Shown: positions 5,914 through 28,686 of the stretch, one piece after another
Position numbering within the stretch: position 1 is the first letter of the stretch
Layout of the letters: each line of letters opens with the position of its first letter
Virus record (IMG/VR): IMGVR_UViG_3300033144_007587
Coordinates: 1-29,964 of that record
Length of the DNA stretch: 29,964 nucleotides
Source: a virus
Direction: 5' to 3' (one strand)
Position numbers and translations under genes: made by a program
Notes under the pieces: model-generated
Database searches by the model: none
What the model saw: only the letters and a program-made list of their open reading frames with translations
What the model was told of the DNA's origin: nothing

Positions 5914-6345
5914 TTAGACACTTGAATCAGCGCCTGAGTTCATAACAACCGCACCAGTGATCTGGATGGTCACATCTGCTGTGACTTTGTCATCCGGTGG
6001 TATGGTCAGGGGCAGTTCAGTTACCAGACCTTCAAATTCCATTGTGGTATTATCATCATCTGGTAAAATGATTTCATAATTCGAAGCCGTATTGCTATCA
6101 AAATCAGTCAGCATCAACTCATACGATGCGCGAGTGAAGTTCATAGCAAGTGATATGGTTCCGGCATTACGAAATCCAGTGATAAACTCTCGGTATCCTC
6201 CAGTGGAATCCAATGAAGTGACATCGATAGTATCACGAGTCATGCCTGGTCCGGTAATAGAATTAATCTCAGCGACGTCCGCGTAAGCGGCACCTCCCCA
6301 ACGACGAAATCTTGTTCCTACACCAGCAATAGCACTACTAGCCAT
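5914..6345 (-). CDS. Major tail tube protein
   Basis: This 143-residue protein has the tail-tube (lambda gpV-like) pattern: a disordered start, then beta strands with the marker region VAEINSITGPGMTRDTIDV and a Thr/Ser-Leu-Asp-Ser turn followed by GYREFITGFRNAG. That signature is common in siphovirus tube proteins. It polymerises as hexameric rings around the tape measure. A strong AAGGAGG SD lies just upstream of the ATG (about 6352-6358) and overlaps the end of the tail terminator gene, fitting high expression. It is followed by a terminator-like hairpin. Length is normal, and no extra C-terminal Ig domain is present. Confidence 0.9.
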   Translation of the reverse strand: MASSAIAGVGTRFRRWGGAAYADVAEINSITGPGMTRDTIDVTSLDSTGGYREFITGFRNAGTISLAMNFTRASYELMLTDFDSNTASNYEIILPDDDNTTMEFEGLVTELPLTIPPDDKVTADVTIQITGAVVMNSGADSSV

Positions 6346-6348
6346 AAT

Positions 6349-6744
6349 TTACCTCCTTTGTAAGTTAAAATTAATAATAAATCGTACCCTCTCGGAAGCG
6401 TCCCAGTCTAACAAGGCGATTCCACCTGGGGTATAAATAACACTATATAAAGTCCCGTTCCATGTCTCTTGTCCCCGGCCATGTAATGAGGTTTTTATAT
6501 CATTGATTAAACTCCATCCAACTTGATAATCAAAATTGCGTACCCGTATTTGGACGGAAGGGTACTCATATCTTTCCTCTTTATTGAAAGTTAGTTGTTC
6601 GGGAAATCCACCGGTATCAAATATAGTCACGGTGTTATCCGGTGTTTCTGGTTCCTTACCAATAAACAAGTCGGTTGCGAATACGAGCCCTAAAGCACTT
6701 TCCGCTTCCAACATATCTTTTATGTCTTCTGATTGTGGGTTCAT
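6349..6744 (-). CDS. Tail terminator / tail completion protein
   Basis: This 131-residue protein lies between the gp10-like gene and the tail tube, the standard place of the tail terminator (lambda gpU-like). It would stop tube growth and join the tail to the head. Visible features are an N-terminal helix, a strand with NTVTIFDTGGFPEQ, the segment YEYPSVQIRVRNFDYQVG, and a C-terminal strand ending FIINFNLQRR. This is the alpha/beta pattern of the family, including the Pro-Ser-Val-Gln-Ile-Arg-Val strand often seen there. The ATG overlaps the preceding stop by 4 nt. Assignment relies on position together with this pattern. Confidence 0.78.
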   Translation of the reverse strand: MNPQSEDIKDMLEAESALGLVFATDLFIGKEPETPDNTVTIFDTGGFPEQLTFNKEERYEYPSVQIRVRNFDYQVGWSLINDIKTSLHGRGQETWNGTLYSVIYTPGGIALLDWDASERVRFIINFNLQRR

Positions 6745-7187
6745 CTTTTTATTTTTGCACCTTTACTAATCAAATGAAATATTCGATCCGCGTTCCTTTT
6801 AATCGCATACTCAAACCACTTTGCCCCGGAATTTTTACGGGACCAGTTTGTTGGCCCAAGCCTTTCATGGACATACAAGGCATAGTTTGCACTGTATCCA
6901 AAAATAATGACACTCTGCTTATTCTTACGAAAGAACCTTGTTGTCCAACTACTGCGAAGATTTCCAGTATCCACAGGAGTCAATGGTGGTGTTTTTTCTG
7001 TATCTGCGTGAATAAACTCTGCTGCTTCGACCAATCCCGCAGCAGAACCAACTTCTATATACGTAAGTGCAGCGTTCAAATTACGTAGAACCCTATCCAT
7101 GCCATGGAACTTCCTGCTCGTTGACGTTGTGACATTAAGAGCGGGGTTCCTACGATATATGTTTCCTGCTAGGGATCTCTGTGCCAT
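6741..7187 (-). CDS. HK97 gp10-like neck/tail protein
   Basis: This 148-residue basic protein carries the hallmark of the HK97 gp10 family: TPPLTPVDTGNLRSSW at about residues 66-81, then a strand and ANYALYVHERLG. In the family the PVDTGxLRxS and YAxxVHE segments are conserved. Members sit at the head-tail joint or help tail completion. The start codon shares one base with the stop of the preceding head-closure gene (TAATG), so translation is coupled. The N-terminus is Arg-rich and probably flexible. Confidence 0.88.
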   Translation of the reverse strand: MAQRSLAGNIYRRNPALNVTTSTSRKFHGMDRVLRNLNAALTYIEVGSAAGLVEAAEFIHADTEKTPPLTPVDTGNLRSSWTTRFFRKNKQSVIIFGYSANYALYVHERLGPTNWSRKNSGAKWFEYAIKRNADRIFHLISKGAKIKR

Positions 7188-7558
7188 TATAAATATGCTT
7201 TACGTACAAATTCAGTTGTTGATCCAAGACTTGGGGTTTTGTCAAATCGTTTGATCTCCCATGCCCCGTCAATTATTTTTGGATCCACAACAGGGTCCCC
7301 ACTGCTATCAGCAATATCAACCAATTCCCCCAAGTACAGAAACCCGTTTTCATCCACATCCTGTAAGGTATAAACATGAGCTTTTGAATAGCTTTGCTCT
7401 CCTTTATTACTCATAAACGTTCCCGTTCTATCTTCCCAACGACACAGGATCTCTACAGCGGCGTCAAATGTATTACTCCCATACCCATCTGGCGTGGGAT
7501 TTCCCCAATACACAGCAGTCTGTGTACAGGCCTGTATTATGGTTTCTGCTATACTCAT
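7187..7558 (-). CDS. Probable head closure (stopper) protein
   Basis: This 123-residue protein sits between the adaptor and gp10-like genes, where the head closure protein is normally found. It has a short N-terminal helix, a segment CRWEDRTGTFMSNKGEQ followed by beta strands, and FLYLGELVDIADSSGDP. A compact beta barrel with a helical lead is typical of stopper proteins such as SPP1 gp16. No catalytic motif is seen. It shares single bases with both neighbours (TAATG at 7558 and 7187). Assignment is mainly by order, with moderate support from size and composition. Confidence 0.65.
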   Translation of the reverse strand: MSIAETIIQACTQTAVYWGNPTPDGYGSNTFDAAVEILCRWEDRTGTFMSNKGEQSYSKAHVYTLQDVDENGFLYLGELVDIADSSGDPVVDPKIIDGAWEIKRFDKTPSLGSTTEFVRKAYL

Positions 7559-7959
7559 TAGTCAAAACTTTCTATTGCGTACATTATAGCTGCTCTCTTA
7601 CCAACCCTATTCATCTTACCTGTCGTATCCAATGCCAAGACAGTCTGACCATACGTAGTGGATCTGAGCATATCATATCCCTTCCCAACATACTCCACCT
7701 TGCTGCCATACTCTACCTCGGCATCACCAACCTTCTCACGGGCAATTGTGGCTACTCTCCAAATAGTCGATGTTACAAGATGAGCCGAATACCAACGCTC
7801 TATCTCTTTCAATATCTCATCACTTGTAGTCGTATCATTTACAAAGATCTTGTTAATGATCAGATTCGCCGCAATGATAAATATATCAATAGTAGAATCC
7901 GCTACCGTACAATCTGTCATGATTGCCTTTACTTCAGTTGCTGTTACTCTTACTGCCAT
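7558..7959 (-). CDS. Head-tail adaptor (DUF4054 / gp6-like)
   Basis: This 133-residue, mostly helical protein starts VTATEVKAIMTDC and contains IDIFIIAANLIINKIF. That matches the usual adaptor opening, a helix followed by long residues facing the portal. The later part reads GKGYDMLRSTTYGQTVLALD, a C-terminal element common in DUF4054-type connectors. It would bind under the portal and join it to the head closure protein. A strong GGGAGGAG SD (7963-7970) lies inside the end of the APS-kinase-like gene, and the genes overlap by 10 nt. This is the first clear virion gene after the glycan cassette, so it marks the cassette's downstream border. Confidence 0.75.
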   Translation of the reverse strand: MAVRVTATEVKAIMTDCTVADSTIDIFIIAANLIINKIFVNDTTTSDEILKEIERWYSAHLVTSTIWRVATIAREKVGDAEVEYGSKVEYVGKGYDMLRSTTYGQTVLALDTTGKMNRVGKRAAIMYAIESFD

Positions 7960-8360
7960 GATCTCCTCCCTTCAGGTGCCTTGTATAAGGCGTGTAATAC
8001 TAGTTCTCCATCTGTTGGTCGTTCATATGTGGTATTCTTCCACAGGGTTCCACCTGGTATATAAACGACAATACTCATCCTCCAATACTCTCTCATTGCA
8101 TCTCTCCACGCCCTCTTCGGACTGACGAAAGCACAGATTACAATTTTTCCTTCTGCTTCGAGCTCTGCAGCCATCTCAGCTGCATCCATTAGATTCATGA
8201 CTCTGCCTTTATCGGTATAGTCATCATTTTTTCTTTTTTCCCGCAACACATCACCATCAATCATAGCCACGCTAAAACCTGCTAGTTTATATTCCGCAGC
8301 AAGTGCCTCGGCATAATGCGTTTTGCCTGCGCCTGCTTTACCTGTTATCAAGTACACCAT
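7950..8360 (-). CDS. Short APS kinase-like protein
   Basis: This 136-residue P-loop protein has the adenylylsulfate kinase pattern. The Walker A motif GKAGAGKT is at residues 7-14, MIDGD at 33-37 (family: DGD), the Asn of RVMNLMDAAEMA at about 56, and AFVSP at 77-81, whose Ser matches the phosphorylated Ser of bacterial APS kinases. The family makes PAPS, the sulfate donor of sulfotransferases, from ATP and APS. It is short (about 200 residues is usual). The mobile lid seems reduced, although YERPTDGELVL resembles the family's late YEPPxxxEIxL segment. It overlaps the upstream sulfotransferase by 23 nt, which fits PAPS supply. Another small-molecule kinase role is possible. No SD is visible. 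Confidence 0.75.
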   Translation of the reverse strand: MVYLITGKAGAGKTHYAEALAAEYKLAGFSVAMIDGDVLREKRKNDDYTDKGRVMNLMDAAEMAAELEAEGKIVICAFVSPKRAWRDAMREYWRMSIVVYIPGGTLWKNTTYERPTDGELVLHALYKAPEGRRSWQ

Positions 8361-9078
8361 TTTGGTTGGGTTGTTTTAATTGTTTTCTACTATGCCACAT
8401 TAATGGATCTATGAAATCAAGTAATTCTGGATTCCATTCCAATCCCAGCCAATCGATTGCCTCATACAACTGTTGGTAATCCCCGTTCACAAATCGGTGT
8501 GGCCAGACCTGCTTGCAATTTGGTCCCTCTTCTTCAGACATCATCTCAATGAAACGCTCTATATGCTGATGCACCCACCATTTCCACCCCTCTTCGACAC
8601 TACTAGCACCAACGGCTCTCTGATTTGCTGAATTGTTAAAAGCTTTCATAAATCCAGTCTTCCCACAGGATTGGATAATGTCACCTGTTCTGCGACGTAC
8701 TATAATCCACTTTGCATTGGGAAAGGCGTAATGCCAGATAGGCCACATCAAACACATCTTTGCCCCTTTATACATCCAGGGCCCACCCTCATACCCCTGC
8801 GCGTGTATTACTGCTTCCACCCTGTGTTTCCAATCTCTGGGAATTGTCATATTAGCAACATCAGGCAATGGGTATTGCCCCAAGGGATCTACACCCAATT
8901 CTCTCAAATAAGGCTTCATGATGTTACTGCGTATATCGGCATTCTCAAACATCCCCTTCTGATTATTACTATTGGGTCCGGACATATTCCCACCAAACGC
9001 ACCACACATATTAATTATGCCTGCAATCATGCTGGTGCCACTACGAGCACATCCTGTTATTAAAATCGGGTCTTTCAT
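8338..9078 (-). CDS. PAPS-dependent sulfotransferase
   Basis: This 246-residue protein carries both PAPS-binding signatures. The 5'-phosphosulfate loop is ILITGCARSGTSMIAGI at residues 5-21, and the 3'-phosphate region is KWIIVRRRTGDIIQSC at 123-138. The family moves sulfate from PAPS to hydroxyl or amino groups of carbohydrates or small molecules. The fold resembles the phage and bacterial Sulfotransfer_1/3 group rather than the neighbouring Sulfotransfer_2 protein, so the two are probably not recent copies. The acceptor cannot be read from sequence; the neighbourhood suggests a glycan. It starts 2 nt after the radical SAM/SPASM stop and overlaps the APS-kinase-like gene by 23 nt. No SD precedes the ATG. 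Confidence 0.85.
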   Translation of the reverse strand: MKDPILITGCARSGTSMIAGIINMCGAFGGNMSGPNSNNQKGMFENADIRSNIMKPYLRELGVDPLGQYPLPDVANMTIPRDWKHRVEAVIHAQGYEGGPWMYKGAKMCLMWPIWHYAFPNAKWIIVRRRTGDIIQSCGKTGFMKAFNNSANQRAVGASSVEEGWKWWVHQHIERFIEMMSEEEGPNCKQVWPHRFVNGDYQQLYEAIDWLGLEWNPELLDFIDPLMWHSRKQLKQPNQNGVLDNR

Positions 9079-9080
9079 AT

Positions 9081-10193
9081 CTATGGAAAATATTTACACA
9101 TTGTATCATCAATAATAACCTTTTCAACTATTTCATTGTATGCACCAAAGGTACACCTGGGGCAATCGTCAATCTTTACACTACGGATTATTTCCCGGTG
9201 CCTGTCTGTATTCCATATCTTCAATAGTTCATATGGATCGGGATCATGCCTACACATTATCAAGTCCTCGCGGCCACGCATGTCAAAACACAAATGGACA
9301 TTGCCATCAGCGCCAAATGTCGGAATCAGTGGTATGGCCCAGCAACGGGAGAAACTAAGTTTCCTTGAGAAATCGGGATTGAATTTATGCCTGATTCCAA
9401 ATACCCTAAAATCCTTTGTCTCCAATTTCATCCCCTCCTCTATTTGATCATTTATATGATGGATGGTTGTGACATCGAATTCTGGCTTTTCCTTTACCTT
9501 CGACAGGTTATCCCATCCAGCTGGCCGGAGGTGGAAATCCTTTACACCAACCTCTTTTGCCAGTTTTATAGCGGCATATATTTCACCAGCATTGTCCGGA
9601 GTAAGCAGAAACTTGAAAGCCACATCACACTTGCTTTTATGGTGGTCCACACGCTTCACAAGTTTTTTCATATTTTCAATGACCCTATCAAATGCACCTT
9701 CGCTCTCAATACCTTTTATCTTCGTGTAGGTAGCACTGGTGGCTGCATCTACAGAGAACCCAACCCAACGCGCTGTTATCGCAGCAACATCGATATCTTT
9801 ATCATTCATGGGGAAACCTGTTGTGATAATCCCGGACTCCAAACCATTGCCGTACATGGCCTCAAGCAGGGTTGTCATTTCCTTGTTTATATAAGGCTCA
9901 CCACCACCACTGATACAAGCACTCATGGGAGTAAAATGTCTGGTAGATCCACGCCAGGTTGCTAAGAAGTCAACAAGTTTCAACATATGTTTCCCAGTCA
10001 TAAGCTTGTTGCTGTGGCTCATCATAGTATAGGCATTGCAGTGTGGACAATCGAACATACACTTATTTGACGGATCGATGTCAACAGTCACCGGAGGCAA
10101 ATACTCTTCCTTTGCACATGCTTCCAGGTGCTCTTTCCACAACAACACTTTTGCGCTGTTAAACGGATTCCATGGATTTGACCACTCTTTCAT
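9081..10193 (-). CDS. Radical SAM enzyme with SPASM-like C-terminus
   Basis: This 370-residue protein has the radical SAM CxxxCxxC motif as CMFDCPHC (Cys45, 49, 52), which binds a 4Fe-4S cluster that cleaves SAM. A Gly-rich SAM-binding strand follows (ACISGGGEPYINKEM). The C-terminal part has a Cys pattern (SRCWAIPLIPTFGADG, HLCFDMRG, DDCPRCTFGAYNE, final DTMCKYF), like SPASM/Twitch domains that hold extra clusters. Known members mature peptides, or oxidise or rearrange sugars and alcohols. No short precursor peptide gene is seen nearby, so a sugar or small-molecule substrate fits better; that is inference. The ATG overlaps the sulfotransferase-2 gene by 35 nt, with an A-rich leader and no SD. 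Confidence 0.85.
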   Translation of the reverse strand: MKEWSNPWNPFNSAKVLLWKEHLEACAKEEYLPPVTVDIDPSNKCMFDCPHCNAYTMMSHSNKLMTGKHMLKLVDFLATWRGSTRHFTPMSACISGGGEPYINKEMTTLLEAMYGNGLESGIITTGFPMNDKDIDVAAITARWVGFSVDAATSATYTKIKGIESEGAFDRVIENMKKLVKRVDHHKSKCDVAFKFLLTPDNAGEIYAAIKLAKEVGVKDFHLRPAGWDNLSKVKEKPEFDVTTIHHINDQIEEGMKLETKDFRVFGIRHKFNPDFSRKLSFSRCWAIPLIPTFGADGNVHLCFDMRGREDLIMCRHDPDPYELLKIWNTDRHREIIRSVKIDDCPRCTFGAYNEIVEKVIIDDTMCKYFP

Positions 10194-10830
10194 ATTTTTC
10201 TTTTTTCACTTTCGTGTACAGATCATAATCTTCACTATACATGTCAATGATTTTTGTTTCTAATCTACTATCCCTTCGTATTACATCCATGAGGTATTTT
10301 TGCAATCCAGGCTCCATTGAGCGATTGATCCACACATCGTAATTTATTTGTTTGCGTGTCGTATGCACGTCAACAAAAGCCCTGATGTCATCCAAAAGTA
10401 TATCATACAATAATATGTAATCCATAATGTCTGGATCATACATCTGGTATACCTGCGGCATTATATGTGTATCAAATACATTGTCTTCAATATCACAAAT
10501 GAATTGCCTAAACCTTTTATGTGGATTAATGATTCTATAATATGGCAATGACCTAGTGTACTTTGGTGACCCGTCATGACGCAGCTTCTCTATTTCCAAA
10601 TATCCGGAGACAATCCGTGTCAGTGGATCCCGCACACATGTGAATTTCACCATTTTAGAAGTGTTTGTCTTGTAGGCAGATTTGGATATGTTCCTTTTTT
10701 GGAAAAACATGCGGCTTATTGTGGAATTGGCATTTTTGGACACAGGAAAGAAGCAAAACTTGCCTGTGGTGTTCGTAAAGAACAACCCGTGTTTCCATTT
10801 CCTACGCACTATGTCATTGAATTCCATCAT
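10159..10830 (-). CDS. Sulfotransferase family 2 (carbohydrate type)
   Basis: This 223-residue protein shows the Sulfotransfer_2 layout: FFPVSKNANSTISRMF (about 27-42), matching the family's PKxAxTSxxxxF phosphosulfate loop, and KFTCVRDPLTRIVSGYLE (about 62-79), matching the 3'-phosphate site RDPxxRxxSxY. Eukaryotic relatives sulfate chondroitin, heparan or HNK-1 sugars. Bacterial and phage members are presumed to act on surface glycans. Length is a little short but the core is complete. The second Met (10827) could also serve as start. The ATG overlaps the epimerase stop by 4 nt, with AAGGT a few bases upstream. Together with the second sulfotransferase and the APS-kinase-like gene it forms a sulfation set. 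Confidence 0.82.
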   Translation of the reverse strand: MMEFNDIVRRKWKHGLFFTNTTGKFCFFPVSKNANSTISRMFFQKRNISKSAYKTNTSKMVKFTCVRDPLTRIVSGYLEIEKLRHDGSPKYTRSLPYYRIINPHKRFRQFICDIEDNVFDTHIMPQVYQMYDPDIMDYILLYDILLDDIRAFVDVHTTRKQINYDVWINRSMEPGLQKYLMDVIRRDSRLETKIIDMYSEDYDLYTKVKKEKYERVVKSMESV

Positions 10831-11516
10831 ACCTTTTCATGGATTATTTCCTGTAAATATTCTTCAGGTGTTTTAAACTGTAAATCTGATGTTTTGTACT
10901 TATATATTTGTTTTTTAGCATCTGCACTCACGAACGGATCCTTATCAAACATTTGACAGATGTCACTTACTGCAATCCATCCATCGGAATAAAACCGAAG
11001 TAATTCCTTATTGTGGTTGCTGAACGCAAATGGGATCTTTTTTGCCACCTCTTCAGCTGAAATGACTTGTATTTGGCTGTCCTTTGTAACAAACAACTTC
11101 ACACCCATCAACACATCATGCACAATCCCCTTAGTCATATTCTCACCTATTACAGAACACAATCTGACAATGGTCCATTTGGGACAGTAATGCTTGACAA
11201 TGCGTTCTGCGAGTTTTCTGTGAAATCCATAATTACTTTTACCAGGTGTCTCCGCATCTATAGATGATATGTAAATATATTTGCCATACTTTAAATGACT
11301 GACACGGTACATAACAGAATTGACCGATGCTTCAAAGTCCTGATTTGGATCAGATTCAGCCAGGTACTTCATACTGCTACCGTTGGCATCTATCACGACA
11401 TCATAATAGCTGTCATCCCAATCTGCACGAAATATTGGGTACCGATCACCATCCGGCAGATGATTGAAAATCTCCCGGCCAATAAACCCATTTGCTCCTA
11501 TAACTCCTATTCTCAT
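10827..11516 (-). CDS. NAD-dependent epimerase/dehydratase-like protein (extended SDR)
   Basis: This 229-residue protein has a Rossmann nucleotide-binding loop at the N-terminus (GVIGANGFIGREIF, GxxGxxG type), the strand YIYISSIDAETPG and the catalytic pair in NYGFHRKLAE (Tyr-x-x-x-Lys). These mark an extended short-chain dehydrogenase of the sugar-nucleotide epimerase/dehydratase class. It is shorter than typical UDP-sugar epimerases (about 310-340), with a reduced C-terminal substrate domain, so the substrate may differ. A role in making or altering an activated sugar for the cassette fits. It overlaps the methyltransferase upstream and the sulfotransferase downstream by 4 nt each. Confidence 0.8.
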   Translation of the reverse strand: MRIGVIGANGFIGREIFNHLPDGDRYPIFRADWDDSYYDVVIDANGSSMKYLAESDPNQDFEASVNSVMYRVSHLKYGKYIYISSIDAETPGKSNYGFHRKLAERIVKHYCPKWTIVRLCSVIGENMTKGIVHDVLMGVKLFVTKDSQIQVISAEEVAKKIPFAFSNHNKELLRFYSDGWIAVSDICQMFDKDPFVSADAKKQIYKYKTSDLQFKTPEEYLQEIIHEKV

Positions 11517-12175
11517 AATACTTTGTAAACTTTTTGTATGCTACGCCGCAGTCCACGGCTGTGTATTTCAATTGCCTTAACAGAATGTTCTTCCAACATC
11601 TCTTTCCACGCCAAACTTTCCCCACCCTTATATTCTTTCGTGGCACCCCAATCATCAAAGTATACCACGGTGCCTGGGACAATCAACCAATTCTCAAACA
11701 TAAATTTAAGTGCATCCCGCGTGGACGTGTACAGATCGACATCGATTTCAACAAGTGAAGCAGGATTCATCCTCTCCTTCTTCAGAAGATCTGTATCAAG
11801 TGTGTCACAAAGAAATCCGGGAATGAGCTTGAGTCGTTCGTTTCCAATCCCCTTTGTTATGATGTCCACAACCTTTACAATGGAACAATCGTATAACTTT
11901 GTGGAGGAAAACCCTCCTTTATCAAACTTAACATTCCTTTTATTATACTGCTGACCATTCTCTTTGGGGAAACCAATGAATGAATCAAACCCGAACATTT
12001 TCCCATACTGTATTTGCTTTTCATCCAAATACTCAGATATGTATTTGGCAGACATTCCAGACCATACCCCATATAAATAGACATCACCTATGAAAGTGAT
12101 GGCGTCCATGGCTTCTCTACGACCAGGCCTCATGGTCTTTATGGTTTCTGATATTTCTGTGAATGTTTTAGGCAT
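11513..12175 (-). CDS. TylF/MycF-like O-methyltransferase
   Basis: This 220-residue protein resembles the TylF/MycF (macrocin O-methyltransferase) family, metal-dependent SAM enzymes that methylate sugar hydroxyls in antibiotics and surface glycans. Visible marks are VYLYGVWSGMSAKY (SAM-binding part), FGFDSFIGFP, the acidic metal-binding stretch EIDVDLYTSTRDAL, and VYFDDWG near the end. This order is that of the family. It overlaps the radical SAM gene upstream by 8 nt and the epimerase by 4 nt. The leader has no SD. A sugar acceptor is likely from family and context; the exact position methylated cannot be inferred. Confidence 0.85.
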   Translation of the reverse strand: MPKTFTEISETIKTMRPGRREAMDAITFIGDVYLYGVWSGMSAKYISEYLDEKQIQYGKMFGFDSFIGFPKENGQQYNKRNVKFDKGGFSSTKLYDCSIVKVVDIITKGIGNERLKLIPGFLCDTLDTDLLKKERMNPASLVEIDVDLYTSTRDALKFMFENWLIVPGTVVYFDDWGATKEYKGGESLAWKEMLEEHSVKAIEIHSRGLRRSIQKVYKVL

Positions 12176-13379
12176 TGGTTGCTGCGTTAAATTCGTGTCT
12201 TAACTCAATAAGTTCAGATATGGACATAGTTTCATGTGTGATATTTGAATCAATATAATAGTTCTCCGGATACTCTTCCCTGATCTCATAACCATTCTCT
12301 TTGCAATAATCCCACAGCCTGGTGCCTGGAAAGACACTCAAGAGGGTCATCTTGCCTGACTGCACCCCACACTCCACATTGAGGGCGATCGTCGCTCTGA
12401 TGTCCTCTGTTGTCTCTGTGGGGGCTCCTATGATGTTGTATGAAGTCGTCTTCAGACCCACTTTCTTCGCTGTGTGAAATGCATCGAGAATCTTCTTTCG
12501 GGACATGTTGCGTTTATAAAGCCCGTTGCGAATCCTATCCACACCACTTTCAATACCCATCCGGATAGTGGTACAACCTGCTTCCTTAAGTGCTACCAAG
12601 ACTTCTTCATTGACAGTATCTGGTCTGGTTTCCACAGAGAATGGTACTGATATGGAATCCCTATACTTTGCACACAACTCAATAGTTCGCTTCTTATTCA
12701 CGGTAAATGTCTCATCAGTGAACCAAACCATATCCATATCATACTTTCTTGTAATGAAACCTACTTCATCAATGATATCATCAACTTCACGGAACCTGGT
12801 TATTTTCTCCTCATACAACTTGGCCATAGCATCACATGAACAATAGGTGCATCGGAACGGGCATCCCCGGGCGGTAAGAAACACACCAGATGCTCTATGC
12901 TCTTCAGATTCCCAATTAAGTTGTTTGGCAAAGTGCCTTTGGAACATCCCATGGTCCGGCCAAGGCAGTGCATCTACATCGGCAAGCTTGCCTGTGATGA
13001 CACTCGTCAATGACTGACCTTGTAAATAATCGAGAAGGGCATATTCTGCTTCACCAATAATTGCAGAGTCAAATACTCCAGAATCAAAAGGTGTGAATGT
13101 TGCGTGGTAACCACCTATTACAAAGGGAACATTGGTCATGATCTTCAACTCCCGAGCTAATTCCTTTACAAAGGTGTAATCCGGTGACAGGGCACTGAAG
13201 CAAATGACATCAGGTTCTATCGATTTTACCTGTATCTTGAGGAAGTTCACCGTTTCAAATGTACCATCCCACAAGAACACTTCTATCCCATTATACTTCA
13301 GATATGAAGATATGTAAGCCAGCCCCATAGGAATCTGTAGGGTCTTAGCCACGTTAGGATATATGAGTAGGACTTTCAT
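12168..13379 (-). CDS. B12-binding-domain radical SAM protein
   Basis: This 403-residue protein has an N-terminal Rossmann domain of the B12-binding type (residues 1-130, starting MKVLLIYPNVAKTLQIPMG). The radical SAM motif GCPFRCTYC follows, with Cys173, 177 and 180. Later come VWFTDETFTVNKKR and IRMGIESGVDRI, both typical of the class. The canonical cobalt-ligand DxHxxG is not present, as in several members that may not bind cobalamin tightly. Members methylate unactivated carbons or do other radical steps in natural-product, lipid and glycan pathways. It overlaps the preceding methyltransferase by 26 nt and the next by 8 nt. The substrate is unknown. Confidence 0.88.
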   Translation of the reverse strand: MKVLLIYPNVAKTLQIPMGLAYISSYLKYNGIEVFLWDGTFETVNFLKIQVKSIEPDVICFSALSPDYTFVKELARELKIMTNVPFVIGGYHATFTPFDSGVFDSAIIGEAEYALLDYLQGQSLTSVITGKLADVDALPWPDHGMFQRHFAKQLNWESEEHRASGVFLTARGCPFRCTYCSCDAMAKLYEEKITRFREVDDIIDEVGFITRKYDMDMVWFTDETFTVNKKRTIELCAKYRDSISVPFSVETRPDTVNEEVLVALKEAGCTTIRMGIESGVDRIRNGLYKRNMSRKKILDAFHTAKKVGLKTTSYNIIGAPTETTEDIRATIALNVECGVQSGKMTLLSVFPGTRLWDYCKENGYEIREEYPENYYIDSNITHETMSISELIELRHEFNAATNA

Positions 13380-14052
13380 TAAGTTTTTTTATGACCAGTA
13401 CAGAAGCATCGTCTTCTTGATTTAAAAAAGTTGTATGGGTTCTCTCAATTTTTGCGAACTCCCATCCTGGTGGCTGTATTCGTTTAAAAAACGTTTCATA
13501 ATTTCTTCTCTGGAAATTTTCCTGCAAAACTATTGTCTTTCTGGCAGACATGCATATATTGAGAATCGCTTTTCCACAATTGACATCACTGAGGTGCATC
13601 AATACCGCACTGGATACAATACAATCAACAGGAGGAACACTATTTTTCACAATATCAACACACCCCACGAAAGGGATCAAACTCAAATGATCTGTTTTGA
13701 GAGATACTATTTGCTCCTCTGATATGTCTGATCCGTAAACTTGTATTTTTCCATTGGACAACATACTTATATTGGATAGGTGATTTCCACGACCACAACC
13801 GATTTCATGAAGATCTTTGGGAGCAAGTTTTAAAATCATTTCATATAACAACTTATGCTGTGGATGTATTTGTAAACACCCTTTTTCAATATACAATTCA
13901 TTATCTACATACACATGATTCTCATCAGACAAAACAAGGGTATACGTATTCTCAAGATCTACCAGTTTTTGATTGTATAACGATGGATACCTGCCCCAAT
14001 CGTAATCATCCTCTCGCACACCTCTACGCATCTTATATGGCTTCCTTGACAT
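13354..14052 (-). CDS. Class I SAM-dependent methyltransferase
   Basis: I place the start at ATG 14052 (232 residues). A TTG at 14058 would add two residues and is less likely. The SAM-binding glycine loop is DLHEIGCGRGNHL, followed by the acidic strand end VYGSDIS and the post-motif region SSAVLMHLSD, as in Methyltransf_11/25-type enzymes. The N-terminus (YDWGRYPSLYNQKL) and C-terminus are not diagnostic. The acceptor is unknown; by context a sugar or other cassette intermediate. It overlaps the GT10-like gene upstream and the radical SAM gene downstream by about 20-26 nt. No SD is visible. Confidence 0.82.
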   Translation of the reverse strand: MSRKPYKMRRGVREDDYDWGRYPSLYNQKLVDLENTYTLVLSDENHVYVDNELYIEKGCLQIHPQHKLLYEMILKLAPKDLHEIGCGRGNHLSNISMLSNGKIQVYGSDISEEQIVSLKTDHLSLIPFVGCVDIVKNSVPPVDCIVSSAVLMHLSDVNCGKAILNICMSARKTIVLQENFQRRNYETFFKRIQPPGWEFAKIERTHTTFLNQEDDASVLVIKKLNESPTHIS

Positions 14053-14749
14053 GATCAAATTGTTTAAAAAAGTTATGGTATAAATAATCTTCTATGACCT
14101 TGTAGCCATGGAAGGCTGTTTTAAAATTGTGTTTTATTGCTGGCATGCGTAACCCGGTAGCAAAACAATCAATGAGGATGTCAGACCAGTAATCTTTTAC
14201 CGATGTGTTGTGGATGGCCACCTGGTACATATACGGGGCATATACTTCTGCCCTTGCTTCTGGGGGAAATGGTTTGTATCCTCTACCAACAACGTGTAAT
14301 ACATCAGCAAATTCTTTCACAACCTCGTGCCTGAAACGATGTCCCACGGCTTTGCGCTTATCACCAACTACGGTAAGAACGAGCTCTGACTTGGGATAGA
14401 TCTTCCACTCATGAGAATATAATGAAGAACCACTGCCCGGGCAAAAGACTCTTTTTTTCTCAGGAAATAATTCCAAGAAGTCCAAATCATGAGAAATGAT
14501 ATAGTCATATTGCTCTGCATATTTCTGTAAAACATTATAAGCTTTGAAATTTATCACAGCAGGCTCTATAATCCACGCTACCTGCAAAGTATCGGCCATA
14601 CGTTTTACAGTGGGGAGATAAGCGGCAGTATACACATTGACTTTTCTGATTCTATTATCCCTCTTCCACTGCACATGCTGTGGCGAGTCATATCCGTTGA
14701 AACAAGGGACATGCCTGATATTTTTATCCATGAGGGTTATTTCCATCAT
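14033..14749 (-). CDS. GT10-like putative glycosyltransferase
   Basis: This 238-residue protein has no single strong family motif. The segment YQVAIHNTSVKDYWSDILID, followed by CFATGLRMP, parallels the acceptor/donor region of GT10 fucosyltransferases (family: FENSxxxxYxTEKxxDxxxxGxxP). The usual TEK is replaced by SDI here. Earlier parts (YIISHDLDFLEL; FCPGSGSSLYSHEW) look like GT-B N-terminal strands. The likely role is sugar transfer to a surface glycan, perhaps with fucose or a related sugar, next to a GT11 fucosyltransferase-like gene. The altered TEK motif makes the donor uncertain. Alternatives are another GT-B family or a non-catalytic relative. It starts with a double ATG overlapping the carbamoyltransferase stop. 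Confidence 0.55.
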   Translation of the reverse strand: MMEITLMDKNIRHVPCFNGYDSPQHVQWKRDNRIRKVNVYTAAYLPTVKRMADTLQVAWIIEPAVINFKAYNVLQKYAEQYDYIISHDLDFLELFPEKKRVFCPGSGSSLYSHEWKIYPKSELVLTVVGDKRKAVGHRFRHEVVKEFADVLHVVGRGYKPFPPEARAEVYAPYMYQVAIHNTSVKDYWSDILIDCFATGLRMPAIKHNFKTAFHGYKVIEDYLYHNFFKQFDHVKEAI

Positions 14750-16293
14750 GACTTTTCAAATAAATAATTTTCTACTACTACGTAATCCATCTCGGTATTG
14801 TATAATATGTGTAGAGCGTCTTCAATTGTTGTCAGAATAGGCTTTCCCTTTATATTGAAAGATGTGTTCAAAAGGACATCTTTGCCATAATCACTGCTCA
14901 TGTACCCCAACAAGCTATGCAGGAATGAGTTCTCACTTGCCTTCACTGTCTGAATCCTGGCCGTGCCATCAACATGTGTAATTGCTGGAAGACGGACGTG
15001 TGATTTAACCCGCGTACAAAATGACATAAATGGAGATTCTCCGGAAAACTCAAAATACTTCTCCCTTTTCTCATACTGGACCACCGGCGCATAGGGACGA
15101 TACCATTCCCGGAACTTGACCTTCTTATTGAGTATGTCTTTCATATCCGGATACGTGGGATCACACAGTATACTCCTGTTACCAAGCGCACGTGGTCCCA
15201 CCTCGGAATCACCCTGCACCACACCTATAATATTTCCCTGGTCCAGAAGTGTGGCAATCCGTTTAATATTGCATTTTTTTGCCTTATATTTTTTCACATA
15301 CATCTCGATCTTGTCCGCATCTAAGACAGGAAATCCTTTGTACGTGATATCAAGTTTTTCATCTGAGTTTATCTCCCGGGCGATCATGCCAAAGGATAGA
15401 CCGCAATCATTGGGATTAGGTGGGACAAACACAGGATTATCTATACCACGCCGTAGTTCTTCATTGAACAGGACGTTCAAAGCACACCCGCCCGTAAGAA
15501 CAATAGGAAGATTGTAGTTGTCTAATACACTGTTTATTTGTTCCAAAACAAGTGCCTCAAAAACAAATTGTGAAGTAGCGGCCAGATCATATGCATTCTC
15601 TCCGGACAATGAGTTCACACCAAGATACAGGCCTATATTAAGTTTTTTCAAAGACTTGGGATGATGCCCACTGCAGTGCATGTAAAATTGCTTCACAGGA
15701 CGTAACCACTCCTTACGTATATTACCATAAGCAGCTAAACCCATTTTCTTCCCGGCAAACGATAACAGATAACTTCCCCAATTCAACTTGTTTTCCTTGG
15801 TCACCTCGTTCAAGGGCATTGCCAAGAGATTGTATCCGGATCCCACTCTTGGATGGGTGATCGATTTTATTTTGTTAATTGTACCATCCTTGACATGGTA
15901 TATGTTGAAGTAAGAAACCTTGCCGTAATCCCATCCCCCGTCGTCATAAGAAACCACAATAGCTTCTTTGAATCCGGAAAGGTGGTATGCCCCGGCAGCA
16001 TGTTCCAGGTGGTGGCCACCTTCTTTAAAGGCCTTTATATCCCAAATCTCTTTGAGGTAGGTAATATGTGAGTTTGGGACACCGTGCGTAATACAGAGAT
16101 CAAAAACAGGTAGTCCAAATTCTTTTTCAATCAATTCGGTTATGATCCGATATATTAGTTTGAAATCGGCATAGGTGTTAAGCGTAAAGTACCTTTCCTT
16201 TACCAACCGCTCCAGTTCGAAAATACGAACCTTGCCGTCAGAGTAAACGGTAATATTTGCGTCATGATGTCCGTAAATACTTATAATCATCAT
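14746..16293 (-). CDS. Carbamoyltransferase (NodU/CmcH family)
   Basis: This 515-residue protein has the full carbamoyltransferase pattern. The N-terminus GHHDANITVYSDG is followed by GGHHLEHAAGAYHLSG (metal-binding His94, 95, 98), SYDDGGWD, VLTGGCALNVLFN (about 265-277), QGDSEVGPRALGNRSILCDP (360-379), KVKFREWYRPYAPVV and LLNTSFNIKGKP near the end. The family moves a carbamoyl group from carbamoyl phosphate through carbamoyl-AMP to a hydroxyl of a sugar or antibiotic: NodU on Nod factors, CmcH on cephamycin, and GdmN/NovN-type enzymes. Both the TsaD-like catalytic part and the C-terminal domain are intact, so it should be active. It overlaps its neighbours by 4 nt each. A sugar acceptor is inferred from context. 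Confidence 0.93.
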   Translation of the reverse strand: MMIISIYGHHDANITVYSDGKVRIFELERLVKERYFTLNTYADFKLIYRIITELIEKEFGLPVFDLCITHGVPNSHITYLKEIWDIKAFKEGGHHLEHAAGAYHLSGFKEAIVVSYDDGGWDYGKVSYFNIYHVKDGTINKIKSITHPRVGSGYNLLAMPLNEVTKENKLNWGSYLLSFAGKKMGLAAYGNIRKEWLRPVKQFYMHCSGHHPKSLKKLNIGLYLGVNSLSGENAYDLAATSQFVFEALVLEQINSVLDNYNLPIVLTGGCALNVLFNEELRRGIDNPVFVPPNPNDCGLSFGMIAREINSDEKLDITYKGFPVLDADKIEMYVKKYKAKKCNIKRIATLLDQGNIIGVVQGDSEVGPRALGNRSILCDPTYPDMKDILNKKVKFREWYRPYAPVVQYEKREKYFEFSGESPFMSFCTRVKSHVRLPAITHVDGTARIQTVKASENSFLHSLLGYMSSDYGKDVLLNTSFNIKGKPILTTIEDALHILYNTEMDYVVVENYLFEKS

Positions 16294-17108
16294 TTCTCAA
16301 ATTCAAGATCAATACGCACCCACTCCTTGGGGCATATGTCACAGTTAGTATATTTTGAATCCACACTCCACCTGGAAGCTGCGATTATTGTTTTCTTCAT
16401 GTTTGGTATAAGCCATGCACCCCACCAGCTAAAACAACTATTTGGGATTATGGCGTGATCACATTTGCTCATAAAGCTCATTGTCGCGTAATCAGTATAA
16501 TCACGACTGTCCAAAACGTAATTAAATTCTCCTTTCATATTTGCAGCCACCCAGTCCCGGGCATCCGTAAAACATACAAATTGGGGATCTTTAAACCATT
16601 CCCGCATCATCTGCATTCCCCTGAGATAAAAATCTCTGGGCACGAGTCCGTGTTTCTGTTTTGCCACACCGTCTGTTCTTTCTCCCCTACGCACATGCAC
16701 AAAGACAGATGGTCTTGTCCGCAACATAGTTTCAAAGTAAGCCATGGATTCATGGTAGGGATCATTCTTCAATGTAAACTCCGCAAGAAGTGTATTCCTG
16801 TAATTTCTGAAGTAATCGGCATCCTGGAAATACCCACTATACACCACATTCCCAAATGGACGAAGTAGGCTCGGGTCATATCCAGCATATTTTTCCGCTC
16901 TTTTTTCATGATTAACAGCAGTGGACTCATTATTGGTAATATTGAATTTATCCAAGACATAGGGGTAATTATACACGTGGTTGCTATTATACCAACTGGT
17001 GTCAAGCACCAAGGATGCGTCATGCTTCAGAGACTGGGCCCTCCCAAAAGCATACTGGAACATCTGATTTCCAAGCCCTCCTTTTAGTATAATTTTGACT
17101 TCTTTCAT
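16290..17108 (-). CDS. GT11 alpha-1,2-fucosyltransferase-like protein
   Basis: This 272-residue protein carries GT11 hallmarks: GGLGNQMFQYAFGRA at 10-24, YSGYFQDADYF at about 90-100, VFVHVRRGER at about 135-144 (the HxRRGD donor-binding motif), and NSCFSWWGAWL near residue 225. Bacterial members add fucose or related sugars from GDP-linked donors to O-antigen, capsule or oligosaccharides. One change is seen: the usual Asp after RRG is Glu. No GDP-fucose synthesis genes are in view, so donor sugar would come from the host. It overlaps the GT25 gene upstream and the carbamoyltransferase downstream by 4 nt, with no SD. Confidence 0.93.
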   Translation of the reverse strand: MKEVKIILKGGLGNQMFQYAFGRAQSLKHDASLVLDTSWYNSNHVYNYPYVLDKFNITNNESTAVNHEKRAEKYAGYDPSLLRPFGNVVYSGYFQDADYFRNYRNTLLAEFTLKNDPYHESMAYFETMLRTRPSVFVHVRRGERTDGVAKQKHGLVPRDFYLRGMQMMREWFKDPQFVCFTDARDWVAANMKGEFNYVLDSRDYTDYATMSFMSKCDHAIIPNSCFSWWGAWLIPNMKKTIIAASRWSVDSKYTNCDICPKEWVRIDLEFEK

Positions 17109-17764
17109 ATCAACGGTTTTTTAAACCTATCAACATAATCACGGTGACCATTCTGGATATCGGAATGATCTGCCCTCTGCCACGCCATTGGTGGATTGAA
17201 AGCATATGCCTTTAACGTGGTCTGCAAAGTTCTGAGATACCCATCCACAGAATCCTTCAAAAAAGGAAAACCACTGTACCATATATTCAATACTTCTGCG
17301 AAAACTCTTTGATTCACAGCATACGCATGTGTTGATGTCATTTCAGTAATGGCAACAACATGTTCCTTAATACCCTCTACATACTGCCCCACACCATTTA
17401 ACCCACCCAGATATAACATATCCCAATCAGAGGGGACATTTTCCGACCAGAGATCGAACTTTTCCGAGAAATGATCCACAAATTCACAATCATCCTCAAA
17501 AACCAACACGGATTGCACATCATCCTTCATAGCATCTCTTAATATCGATATATGTGTAGATATACATCCAGACATACCTTCAAATCCTCTCAGGGGTGGT
17601 TTATATGCGTCCGGTTTCCATCCCCATGTATTTCCTTCAACTGCGCGAATACGACCAGCACTTATTCCATTAGCAAGAAGCAACTGATCCATCCTCTTTC
17701 TGCGATCTGCTCGTTTAGGAAGATTGATATAACATATCCGGTCGAAGAATGTATTAATCTGCAT
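17105..17764 (-). CDS. GT25-family (LPS-type) glycosyltransferase
   Basis: This 219-residue protein has the GT25 order: YINLPKRADRRKRM near the N-terminus (family YxINLxxRxDR), GCISTHISILRDA, and VLVFEDDCEF (the acidic EDD metal/donor motif), then STHAYAVNQRVF. Relatives include LgtB/LpsA enzymes, which transfer galactose or glucose in lipooligosaccharide, and the collagen galactosyltransferases. Its length is about normal for short bacterial and phage members. A strong AAAGGAGG SD lies 6 nt before the ATG (17771-17778), inside the upstream glycosyltransferase gene, which it overlaps by 11 nt. Acceptor and sugar cannot be read from sequence. Confidence 0.9.
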   Translation of the reverse strand: MQINTFFDRICYINLPKRADRRKRMDQLLLANGISAGRIRAVEGNTWGWKPDAYKPPLRGFEGMSGCISTHISILRDAMKDDVQSVLVFEDDCEFVDHFSEKFDLWSENVPSDWDMLYLGGLNGVGQYVEGIKEHVVAITEMTSTHAYAVNQRVFAEVLNIWYSGFPFLKDSVDGYLRTLQTTLKAYAFNPPMAWQRADHSDIQNGHRDYVDRFKKPLI

Positions 17765-18440
17765 ACCATGCCTCCTTTACCCATTGTGCATCCACCTGGT
17801 TTGGTCTGGGGGATCCGTGAAAACATATGATACGGGCATCCTCTTTTAATCCAAATCGTTTTACATGCCTTTTATAACTACAAATCCCACTAACCACATT
17901 TTGCCAATGGACATAACGCTTACCGGCTTGTTTCAATTGGAAACTCAAATAATCCTGATCTCCTGCAAATTTACGGGAGTACAACTCATAGTTGAACTGC
18001 TCAAAGAGGAAGTTGAAAGACCCATCATTTCTCCAACTCATAATCGCAGATGCTACATAATTTTCCCACCGTGATCGTGTTGGGTTGAAAGGACGCAAAC
18101 CAATGAAATCAAAATCTTGCATCAACAGATCATCGATGTTGGCAAGAATGATTGTATCCAAATCAAAATAAAGGATGCGATCTGCATCAACCAAGTCTGG
18201 CCTAAACAACTCCACCTTTGACCACCATCCATGGTAATCAAACCTTAGTGGTAAAGCAAAAGGTTGTAGTACATCTGCCCCTGTATGTACCATATTCACA
18301 ATTGAACGACCTGTATCTGTCAAGCAATAGAAATCATAAGGTACGGTAATGTTCTTCTCCAACATGCCTTTCAAACGAATTACATCAATTGGGTGAAAAT
18401 CACCTCCAGATTTCAATACACATATTATTGCCGTTTTCAT
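17754..18440 (-). CDS. GT-A glycosyltransferase with DxD motif (GT8-like)
   Basis: This 228-residue protein opens with the strand TAIICVLKSGG, has GWWSKVELFRPDL, and then ILYFDLDTIIL, a clear DxD nucleotide-sugar and metal site. The later GDQDYLSFQL and ICFHGSPRPNQVD fit GT8-type or phage glycosyltransferases, where the FHGxPxP segment lies near the active site. A strong GGGAGGAG SD lies 6 nt before the ATG (18447-18454). The gene overlaps the DUF115-like gene by 4 nt and the GT25 gene by 11 nt. Such genes often follow capsid genes in environmental phages. Whether the acceptor is a virion protein or a host glycan is unknown. Confidence 0.85.
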   Translation of the reverse strand: MKTAIICVLKSGGDFHPIDVIRLKGMLEKNITVPYDFYCLTDTGRSIVNMVHTGADVLQPFALPLRFDYHGWWSKVELFRPDLVDADRILYFDLDTIILANIDDLLMQDFDFIGLRPFNPTRSRWENYVASAIMSWRNDGSFNFLFEQFNYELYSRKFAGDQDYLSFQLKQAGKRYVHWQNVVSGICSYKRHVKRFGLKEDARIICFHGSPRPNQVDAQWVKEAWYAD

Positions 18441-19234
18441 TTCCTTCTCCTCCCTCGTATTATCTTAACCTGTGGACTGGCCGGTGGGGGTAATTTTGTA
18501 ATGTCCACAACCGGAACCGGTAACCCCTTTAAAACATCCTTAACAGTCATTTTCGGAAAAATATCAATTGCACTGTCAGGACTAGCATTAATAATCACAA
18601 TCCCACGAACTGCAGCATCTCTGGCAATCGCGGGAAACCCGGACATATGGCGTATAAATGGGAGTTTTTCCTTTTTACGTGGTGTGTACTTACCGGGACC
18701 GGAATAGTCTGAATGCCAATGCTGTCTGCCATCATCACCCAATTTCATATCAAATCCCAATAACACAATACGTTTTGCACCCATATTCGCTGCCACACTT
18801 ATTGCCGCTGCACCACTGTTGCCGTTCCAAGCGACTTTGTGTGGGTCCGGAGTTATTCCTTTGTTATGGGAATTGTCCTTGGGAGTATGTTTGACATTCT
18901 CAGAACGGAATCTGCCATTGGCAAAATAAGGATGGCTCGTCACCTTTAATCCTGTAAATTCTGCCAGTAGTTTCCTGTGCTTAAGATACCAACCCTTATC
19001 TCCCCAGAACACAACATCAATCCAGTTACCTATCAGAAACGCTGTATTGACTCCAATCGCATGTTTTTTGTGAATGGAATCCATATAGGGTGAATAGGCA
19101 CTGAGCGGTAAATCCTGAGACATCACATTCTGGATGATTTCTTCCGGGACATCAAATTGTCTCGGTAAAGATGGTCCTCCACCTAATATCCAACATTCGC
19201 CGCCTTCCCATATTCTAGGAATGCGCCAGGCCAT
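18437..19234 (-). CDS. DUF115-like / 'norphogenetic' Rossmann protein
   Basis: This 265-residue protein begins with CWILGGGPSL (residues 14-23), a nucleotide-binding-like glycine loop. It then has GVNTAFLIGNWIDVVFWGD, NGNSGAAAISVAANMGAKRI and VLLGFDMKLG followed by QHWHSDY. This order is that of the DUF115/MptE-like proteins found in many phage structural regions, some annotated as norphogenetic protein. The fold is related to sialyltransferase-like and 6-hydroxymethylpterin diphosphokinase-like enzymes; function in phages is not known. The C-terminus is Pro-rich and ends in a basic GRRRK tail. Start and preceding stop share one base (TAATG). It may belong to the head region or open the glycan cassette. 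Confidence 0.75.
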   Translation of the reverse strand: MAWRIPRIWEGGECWILGGGPSLPRQFDVPEEIIQNVMSQDLPLSAYSPYMDSIHKKHAIGVNTAFLIGNWIDVVFWGDKGWYLKHRKLLAEFTGLKVTSHPYFANGRFRSENVKHTPKDNSHNKGITPDPHKVAWNGNSGAAAISVAANMGAKRIVLLGFDMKLGDDGRQHWHSDYSGPGKYTPRKKEKLPFIRHMSGFPAIARDAAVRGIVIINASPDSAIDIFPKMTVKDVLKGLPVPVVDITKLPPPASPQVKIIRGRRRK

Positions 19235-19578
19235 TATGCCTGCAGACCCTCGATGAATTTCTCAGCTGCCTCTTTCCCTTTGATCGCTTCTTCATTCACG
19301 ACCTTTTCATTGGAATCAAGTATATTGTAGAAACCACCACTACGGTGCTTTACAGTATACTCGGGCTTGACCACCTTTACAGGTGCTGCGGCTTCCTCCT
19401 TTGCAGGATTCTTATCCAAGCAAATAATAACATCACGGAAACCCTGAGGTATCTCATGATCATATGCCATAAATTCCTGCCCAGGCTTAATAATCCGATT
19501 ACTCTTCATACGGAAGGATCCTCCACCGATCTTTTTCCACTTGAGCTTTTTTTCGTCTGTATTTTTTGAACGTTCCAT
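19234..19578 (-). CDS. Small hypothetical phage protein downstream of capsid gene
   Basis: This 114-residue protein has two parts. Residues 1-55 are basic with short strands (FRMKSNRIIKPGQEFMAYD). After an Ala/Pro-Val-Lys linker comes YTVKHRSGGFYNILDSNEKV and a C-terminal helix (GKEAAEKFIEGL). This two-part shape occurs in small phage proteins near the capsid gene; I do not recognise a function. A head accessory or decoration role is possible. It is separated from the capsid gene by 45 nt holding a terminator-like hairpin, has no SD, and shares one base with the next gene. Confidence 0.6.
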   Translation of the reverse strand: MERSKNTDEKKLKWKKIGGGSFRMKSNRIIKPGQEFMAYDHEIPQGFRDVIICLDKNPAKEEAAAPVKVVKPEYTVKHRSGGFYNILDSNEKVVNEEAIKGKEAAEKFIEGLQA

Positions 19579-19623: not shown

Positions 19624-20727
19624 TTAAGAAGCGTGAACAACCCCACATTTGCCGTCTTGGTCAGAACGAATCTGCGGCACCTGGATTGTCATTACTTTGT
19701 ATTTGGTTACAAACCTACCTTCTTCTGTCCACTGGACATTCTGGATTCCCATACCACGAACCAGGCGAACAGTTTCCTTGCTCATCTGAACCATGAGTAC
19801 GTTATCAGCCGTAAGGGTGTCAACCACCTTTATACCTTTGATACCACTAATCTTCAGGAGTCTCTCACGAATGGTTCCAGAAGTTCTGGTATCAGGAGTA
19901 GCATGGACATAATCTTCATCCAGTTTGGTTTCATATGCTGTAGGAATATACACCATAAACGGACCTTGCTGGAAATTATTAAGCATTGACTGTTTCCAAG
20001 CCAAAACCTGATCAACAATGTCCTTACCGGAAGCAGCTGAATCATCCCAATTGGTTCCCAGCGTCTGGGTATCCCGGTCTGGGTGATTGAGGTAACTGTA
20101 AATACTGTTCCTGCTGCGTGAATCCTTTGTACCCCATGCATATTCGGTATCCGTAAAAAGCATTTGCTCCAGCTTCAGCTTTATTTTACGAGTAGCACGT
20201 TCAGCCATTGTGGTGTCAATACCATTACCCATATTCCTGGAAACCGTGAGAGCACGAGTGTTTATTTCGTAGTCTGCATGGATTATCGGAATGGGTAAGT
20301 AGTTATGTTGCCATTCTGGCCTGTCGTTCTGTCCACGGGGTAAACCGTCCATGGTCAGTTCAGCAGTCAACGCATCGGATACGTCATGCCATTCCAGCAC
20401 GGTTGTACCCATCCCGTTTCCGAGATCATAGGTTAATCCATTTGAAACCAGATCCTCAATACCACCAAGCCTGGACTCGGAGATACCAATTACAGCTTCA
20501 TCAAGTCTCTTCCATTCATCCCTTCTCAGGGTGGCGTTGACATTAATGGACTGGGTTGCATAATTCTTGGGATCCTCACGGTCCCCACTTCCTTTATAGA
20601 CCGACATGTATGCCCGACCATCGTTTCCAACGAAAGGACGTAATGAACCAGGGTCCATTTGGTTATTTGCCTGTAGTGTGTGAGCGATATCGCCCTTCAT
20701 ATCTACCTGTACATTTGTATTTGGCAT
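19624..20727 (-). CDS. Major capsid protein (HK97 fold, linocin/encapsulin-like)
   Basis: This 367-residue protein has the pattern of capsid proteins related to Linocin M18/encapsulin. The stretch LRRDEWKRLDEAVIGISESR is followed by GLTYDLGNGMGTTVLEWHDV, then PIPIIHADYEINTRALTVSR and an E-rich helix (RKIKLKLEQMLFTD). The C-terminal part (GIKVVDTLTADNVLMVQMS; MTIQVPQIRSD) forms the usual strands of the A and P domains. It builds the icosahedral shell. The position after scaffold and decoration genes agrees. An AAGGAG SD (20736-20741) precedes the ATG with good spacing, and a hairpin follows the stop, both fitting high expression. No encapsulin cargo gene is seen, and the portal and protease show it serves a phage. 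Confidence 0.9.
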   Translation of the reverse strand: MPNTNVQVDMKGDIAHTLQANNQMDPGSLRPFVGNDGRAYMSVYKGSGDREDPKNYATQSINVNATLRRDEWKRLDEAVIGISESRLGGIEDLVSNGLTYDLGNGMGTTVLEWHDVSDALTAELTMDGLPRGQNDRPEWQHNYLPIPIIHADYEINTRALTVSRNMGNGIDTTMAERATRKIKLKLEQMLFTDTEYAWGTKDSRSRNSIYSYLNHPDRDTQTLGTNWDDSAASGKDIVDQVLAWKQSMLNNFQQGPFMVYIPTAYETKLDEDYVHATPDTRTSGTIRERLLKISGIKGIKVVDTLTADNVLMVQMSKETVRLVRGMGIQNVQWTEEGRFVTKYKVMTIQVPQIRSDQDGKCGVVHAS

Positions 20728-28685: not shown

Positions 28686-28686
28686 C

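Follow-up and report, generated by a model that had tools for sequence, protein, structure and literature searches.

The stretch of DNA analysed here (the window) is a 29,964-base virus fragment of IMG/VR (record IMGVR_UViG_3300033144_007587), and it carries a block of 14 enzyme genes within a phage head operon. Its head and tail genes all lie on the minus strand, in the order portal, Mu-F-like, protease/scaffold-like, decoration, capsid, small protein, 14 enzymes, adaptor-like, stopper-like, neck, connector, tail tube, chaperones and tape measure. The enzyme open reading frames (ORFs) occupy positions 7950-19234, in a slot between the small post-capsid gene and the adaptor-like gene. A chained block at this place had been described in the original prediction, and it was confirmed as 14 co-directional, mostly overlapping ORFs. 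The overlaps of 4-35 nt given there had to be corrected to 1-35 nt, with a sole gap of 2 nt at 9078/9081. The slot genes and their borders are listed below (L numbers denote related loci).

7558-7959, minus strand: head-tail adaptor-like gene, DUF4054, downstream border of the slot, conserved in relatives (Pfam 3.1e-6, PHROG-302 2.3e-6)
7950-8360, minus strand: short (136 aa) adenosine phosphosulfate (APS) kinase-like P-loop protein, proposed to supply 3'-phosphoadenosine 5'-phosphosulfate (PAPS) (Pfam 2.5e-18; far below all NCBIfam cut-offs)
8338-9078, minus strand: sulfotransferase, Sulfotransfer_3-like, the usual last enzyme of the slot (Pfam 1e-5, 26.3 bits against a cut-off of 27)
9081-10193, minus strand: radical S-adenosylmethionine (SAM) enzyme (Pfam 4.4e-10; homologues 85% identical in L116 and L117)
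10159-10830, minus strand: second sulfotransferase, Sulfotransfer_2 (Pfam 1.7e-11; no homologue among the fetched relatives)
10827-11516, minus strand: short-chain dehydrogenase/reductase (SDR)/epimerase-like protein (weak, below Pfam cut-offs; homologues at 58% in L116 and L117)
11513-12175, minus strand: TylF-like O-methyltransferase (Pfam 4.7e-15)
12168-13379, minus strand: B12-binding radical SAM enzyme (Pfam 6.8e-25 and 2.6e-16; 89% identical fragment in L117)
13354-14058, minus strand: class-I SAM methyltransferase (Pfam 1.7e-6, PHROG 2.5e-10)
14033-14749, minus strand: protein without family match, fucosyltransferase-like by eye only
14746-16293, minus strand: NodU/Nol-like carbamoyltransferase (Pfam 6.2e-61, PHROG-1601 4.2e-115)
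16290-17108, minus strand: GT11 glycosyltransferase (Pfam 4.9e-21, PHROG 1.4e-37)
17105-17764, minus strand: GT25 glycosyltransferase (Pfam 4e-10)
17754-18440, minus strand: PHROG-1962 glycosyltransferase, a relative of P1 PmgQ (PHROG 2.8e-29; 33.5% identity to PmgQ)
18437-19234, minus strand: DUF115/Maf-like glycosyltransferase, constant first gene and proposed initiator (PHROG-4603, 'sialyltransferase'/DUF115-like, 1.8e-31)
19234-19578, minus strand: small two-domain protein between capsid and slot, with homologues in relatives (mean predicted local distance difference test score, pLDDT, of the model 81)
19624-20727, minus strand: major capsid protein (MCP), upstream border of the slot (DUF6260 8.1e-20, PHROG-771 5.6e-21)

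Family matches were obtained for 13 of the 14 enzyme genes, with varying strength and several of them weak. The enzyme roster of the original prediction was therefore retained except for the fourth glycosyltransferase, at 14033-14749, for which searches of Pfam, PHROG, NCBIfam and PDB gave nothing credible and no relatives were found, and whose single-sequence fold model was useless (pLDDT 32). The APS kinase-like protein exceeds the Pfam cut-off over positions 4-98 of 152 and falls short of the curated cut-offs for a full-length domain; its name is limited to "APS kinase-like". The DUF115/Maf-like protein scores below the Pfam MptE-like cut-off (20.6 bits against 34.6), and a PDB profile search with it returned nothing. 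Phage-encoded glycosyltransferases are nonetheless present, as profile matches for GT11, GT25, PHROG-1962 and the DUF115-like family. No clear nucleotide-sugar synthesis set was found in the slot of the window; therefore the sugar donors would come from the host, and the description of the pathway as "complete" was overstated.

Promoter-like and terminator-like sites in the window occurred at the frequency expected from shuffled sequence (43 against 39 ± 6, and 14 against 10.4 ± 3.8, respectively), and no Bacteroidota-type promoter matched on the coding strand. An own promoter for the enzyme block, whether of sigma-70 or Bacteroidota type, was accordingly rejected, in agreement with the earlier remark that none is visible. 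Because such matches stay at shuffled expectation, the simplest reading is that the enzyme genes are transcribed together with the structural genes.

The capsid, DUF115-like and sulfotransferase proteins were used as queries against IMG/VR and GTDB genomes, and more than 150 related loci were obtained. Loci fetched with the sulfotransferase were excluded from the count of end genes to avoid bias. In the capsid-fetched IMG/VR loci whose sequence continues for 1.3 kb or more downstream, a DUF115-like gene lies within three genes after the capsid in 73/73 cases, a figure that covers the closest capsid relatives. Of the nonredundant viral loci fetched with the capsid, 40 extend as far as the adaptor; every one of them has DUF115 as its first enzyme, and 30 have a PAPS-type sulfotransferase as their last. 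Where the latter is absent, a further protein that looks glycosyltransferase-like by eye often takes the final place. These 40 loci hold 1-12 slot genes with a median gap of 5.4 kb, and the capsid-adaptor gap of the window (11,665 bases) is the largest among 71 nonredundant loci. A search with a divergent capsid, together with genome contigs, yielded a total of 11 relatives that lack DUF115, some with nearly empty slots (L101, L207 and the Brevundimonas phage MaInes). The two constant ends of the slot are also naturally dissociated, with a sulfotransferase and no DUF115 in L103, L202, L227 and L102, and DUF115 without a sulfotransferase in L042. Identity correlated with MCP identity at 0.30 for DUF115, 0.16 for the last sulfotransferase and 0.17-0.53 for the structural genes, which is not decisive.

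Between these ends the slot is hypervariable. When capsids at least 80% identical were paired, a homologue of the first gene at 60% identity or more was found in 60 of 72 comparisons, and a homologue of an interior gene in just 20 of 184. The capsids of L037 and L042 are 95% identical, and their slots contain five genes and one gene, respectively. L031, the closest relative, and the window have three slot genes in common at 60% or more, namely DUF115, the terminal sulfotransferase and the APS kinase. Representatives of the interior genes match methyltransferases, GT2, FkbM, radical SAM enzymes, GDP-mannose dehydratase, epimerases, cupins and sulfotransferases. The search for the same gene order in related phages, which had been proposed as a check, thus found the slot again between capsid and adaptor with a mostly different interior, and the design of constant ends and variable middle emerges only from this comparison. 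Bacterial surface-polysaccharide loci show this same population pattern, which here lies within a phage head operon. An assembly chimera with a host locus, raised as a concern in the original prediction, was rejected for the arrangement, as dozens of independent contigs contain the slot together with its borders; the SDR / radical SAM / sulfotransferase / APS kinase / adaptor junction of the window is found again in L116 and L117, which come from other metagenomes.

In the terminal sulfotransferase, the residues of the TGxxRSGxS and RRxxxDIxxSC motifs are 89-100% conserved across 88 homologues, and those binding the 5' and 3' phosphates of PAPS (T8, G9, R12, S13, G14, R128 and S137) are conserved at 95-99%. 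No homologue of this protein was found among cultured phages. The APS kinase-like gene, where present, adjoins a sulfotransferase in 28/28 cases, and its product may supply PAPS; the wording is kept conditional because the protein is short and below the NCBIfam cut-offs. Sulfation, as read from the gene content, is predicted to be common across the loci and not universal, since some of them end without the terminal sulfotransferase.

Two virion proteins of the window contain candidate acceptor segments.

20748-21227, minus strand: head decoration protein (PHROG-766 5.8e-9), with the Ser-rich loop NSSADSSVSP at 20787-20816
5914-6345, minus strand: tail-tube protein (Pfam 5.4e-13), with the C-terminal tail NSGADSSV at 5917-5940

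The decoration proteins of DUF115-bearing phages have a Ser-rich C-terminal loop before the last strand, such as SGSSGEESSG. This Ser cluster was present in 90/112 DUF115-positive and in 1/10 DUF115-negative relatives (Fisher 1.4e-5), with 4.0 against 1.5 Ser in the region. Ser/Gly C-terminal tails (e.g. NSGSGS) occur in the tail-tube proteins of most DUF115-positive relatives; Ser plus Gly in the last eight residues averages 4.5 in the tail tube, against 0.4-3.4 in seven other structural proteins. Both loop and tail are present in L042, which has DUF115 only, whereas the loop is absent from L103 and L202, which have a sulfotransferase and no DUF115; this pattern points to DUF115 as the initiating enzyme. 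The small protein next to the capsid is a weaker acceptor candidate, because it has almost no conserved Ser/Thr, the only one being a Ser in a GGGS stretch. A Foldseek search with its model gave no match at E<=0.001.

Taken on sequence grounds, the block is probably one allele of a modular virion-glycosylation locus in which DUF115 takes the first step and sulfation often caps the product. We infer that the enzymes act on the two virion proteins named above, in the order of steps that follows, that the glycan is sulfated and that the phage may benefit. In the cytoplasm, the DUF115/Maf-like enzyme would attach the first sugar to Ser residues, the likeliest sites being the decoration protein's Ser-rich loop and the Ser/Gly C-terminal tail of the tail tube. 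The variable glycosyltransferases would lengthen the chain with sugar nucleotides made by the host, the carbamoyl-, methyl-, radical SAM and SDR enzymes would modify it, and the sulfotransferases would add sulfate from PAPS provided by the APS kinase-like protein. If the block is expressed with the late structural genes, virions would receive the glycan during assembly, and related phages that swap interiors would alter their particle surface in a serotype-like manner. The preference for late decoration of virions over early takeover, expressed in the original prediction, is supported by the fixed head-operon slot, by the near absence of predicted membrane proteins among the slot proteins and by the Ser/Gly-rich candidate acceptors.

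Several observations weigh against virion glycosylation begun by DUF115. The sum of Ser and Thr in the decoration region shows no difference between the DUF115-positive and DUF115-negative groups, the Ser cluster is missing from 22 of the 112 decoration proteins in the DUF115-positive group, and the Ser motif was defined post hoc, from the alignments. The tail was found in 0/3 tail-tube proteins of DUF115-negative relatives, a group of three only. The tree-controlled test of DUF115 and loop was underpowered, with four supported independent pairs, all in the expected direction. Finally, loci with a sulfotransferase and without DUF115 suggest that the sulfotransferase may act on another substrate.

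It is unlikely that the cassette instead modifies a glycan of the host envelope late in infection, blocking superinfection or keeping released virions off debris. GT11, GT25, carbamoyl- and sulfotransferases are frequent in envelope-glycan loci, and the hypervariability of the slot resembles that of O-antigen loci. However, 433/449 slot proteins lack a membrane segment by a hydropathy measure that detected the controls (O-antigen WbbH and RfbX, P22 GtrABC) as membrane proteins, and borderline cases make up most of the remaining 16. The undecaprenyl-sugar initiator PF02397 was found in 0/28 phage records, which may be fragments, and no flippase or polymerase was recognised among the slot proteins, so the membrane flippase/polymerase and lipid-linked initiator that mark an envelope locus of Wzx/Wzy or Gtr type are missing. 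The fixed head-operon position and the candidate acceptors within virion proteins also argue against it. Still less probable is that the slot collects unrelated modifiers of virion proteins, with sulfotransferases whose substrates are proteins or host glycans and whose action does not depend on DUF115. The dissociated loci L103, L202, L227 and L102, and L042 in reverse, would fit this explanation, but in most loci DUF115 and the sulfotransferase frame multi-gene glycosyltransferase sets.

That the enzymes build a hypermodified DNA base protecting the phage DNA is very improbable. Thymidylate synthase is the usual entry to hypermodified pyrimidines, and this family was found in 1/28 records, which may be fragments, and not in the window's own record. 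DNA glycosylation is known in phages and sulfotransferases are mentioned in nucleotide-modification systems (PMC10829341, PMC12619734), but the head-operon placement and the association of Ser-rich virion segments with DUF115 disagree with such a role. Synthesis of a diffusible small molecule, e.g. a glycoside, is hardly to be expected, as genes for making a scaffold, for export or for a peptide precursor were not recognised and the interior differs in nearly every relative, although natural-product loci, too, contain TylF, B12-radical SAM and NodU-type families.

The favoured reading, glycosylation of the virion, has partial counterparts in known systems. Virion glycosylation in the mycobacteriophage Che8 and its relatives was reportedly described by Freeman et al. 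in 2023. Those systems likewise use phage-encoded glycosyltransferases, and glycans sit on the C-termini of the capsid and tail-tube proteins, according to two papers (PMC12619734, PMC11256854). They consist of few glycosyltransferases (located close to the genome's 3' end in Maravista), whereas here up to 14 genes, sulfotransferases included, lie in a head-operon slot and the glycan is predicted. In Pseudomonas phage D3, the DUF115-like orf7 directly follows the capsid and its small neighbour, the same site as here, but DUF115 stands alone and no sulfotransferase was recognised. Phage S20 (L188, NC_020840) also has a DUF115-like gene after the capsid and small neighbour, and a glycosyltransferase/methyltransferase set in the head operon; unlike in the window, most of that set follows the adaptor-like gene, and no sulfotransferase was recognised. 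S20 is a tailed phage of marine origin, an isolate whose recorded host is an alga, and its region 6130-11713 contains DUF115, FkbM-like, GT2-like and PHROG-1962-like genes, split by the adaptor-like gene. Phage P1 (L187, NC_005856) encodes the DUF115-like PmgO and the PHROG-1962 glycosyltransferase PmgQ in one late cluster, which is not located between capsid and adaptor. A DUF115-like and PHROG-1962-like pair was also seen upstream of the small terminase in Citrobacter phage phiNP (L186, 5472-6657).

Bacterial O-antigen and capsule loci share constant borders, an exchangeable interior and overlapping enzyme families with the slot, in which, unlike those loci, no flippase, polymerase or lipid-linked initiator was detected. 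Maf enzymes carry out cytoplasmic protein glycosylation at Ser/Thr. The relationship of the Maf flagellin glycosyltransferases to the window protein is a distant DUF115/MptE-like one, below the Pfam cut-off, and the substrate here would be virion proteins instead.

In the open-access literature searched, no description of a constant-end exchangeable slot or of virion sulfation was found, nor any paper on DUF115 in phage or on phage genomes with a sulfotransferase and a carbamoyltransferase. Particle glycans have so far been shown for few phages. We give about an even chance to the wider proposition of a "virion serotype locus" in a widespread phage lineage, a capsule-like, exchangeable cassette, constant in its first gene, that glycosylates head and tail, often with a sulfate cap, and creates strain-specific particle surfaces. 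If so, a large recurring family would make particle glycans, often sulfated, from multi-gene exchangeable cassettes, and the surface chemistry of the particle would be a variable trait, bearing on diffusion, adhesion, avoidance of predators or antibodies, and classification. Virion glycosylation would also suggest a role for the unexplained P1 genes pmgO and pmgQ.

Outside the slot, no Terminase_6N match was found in the window. Three ORFs lie upstream of the portal gene (25549-29964), two of them with Bacteroidota-style signal peptides by eye; the one at 25549-27714 has a polysaccharide-deacetylase-like "FRLDDG" stretch by eye, no Pfam match and no homologue in relatives. Capsid relatives were found in Bacteroidota and several other metagenome-assembled genomes. 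One slot-bearing head operon (L110, CP070742.1) lies inside a 3.7-Mb metagenome-assembled Zixiibacteriota chromosome, which suggests a prophage.

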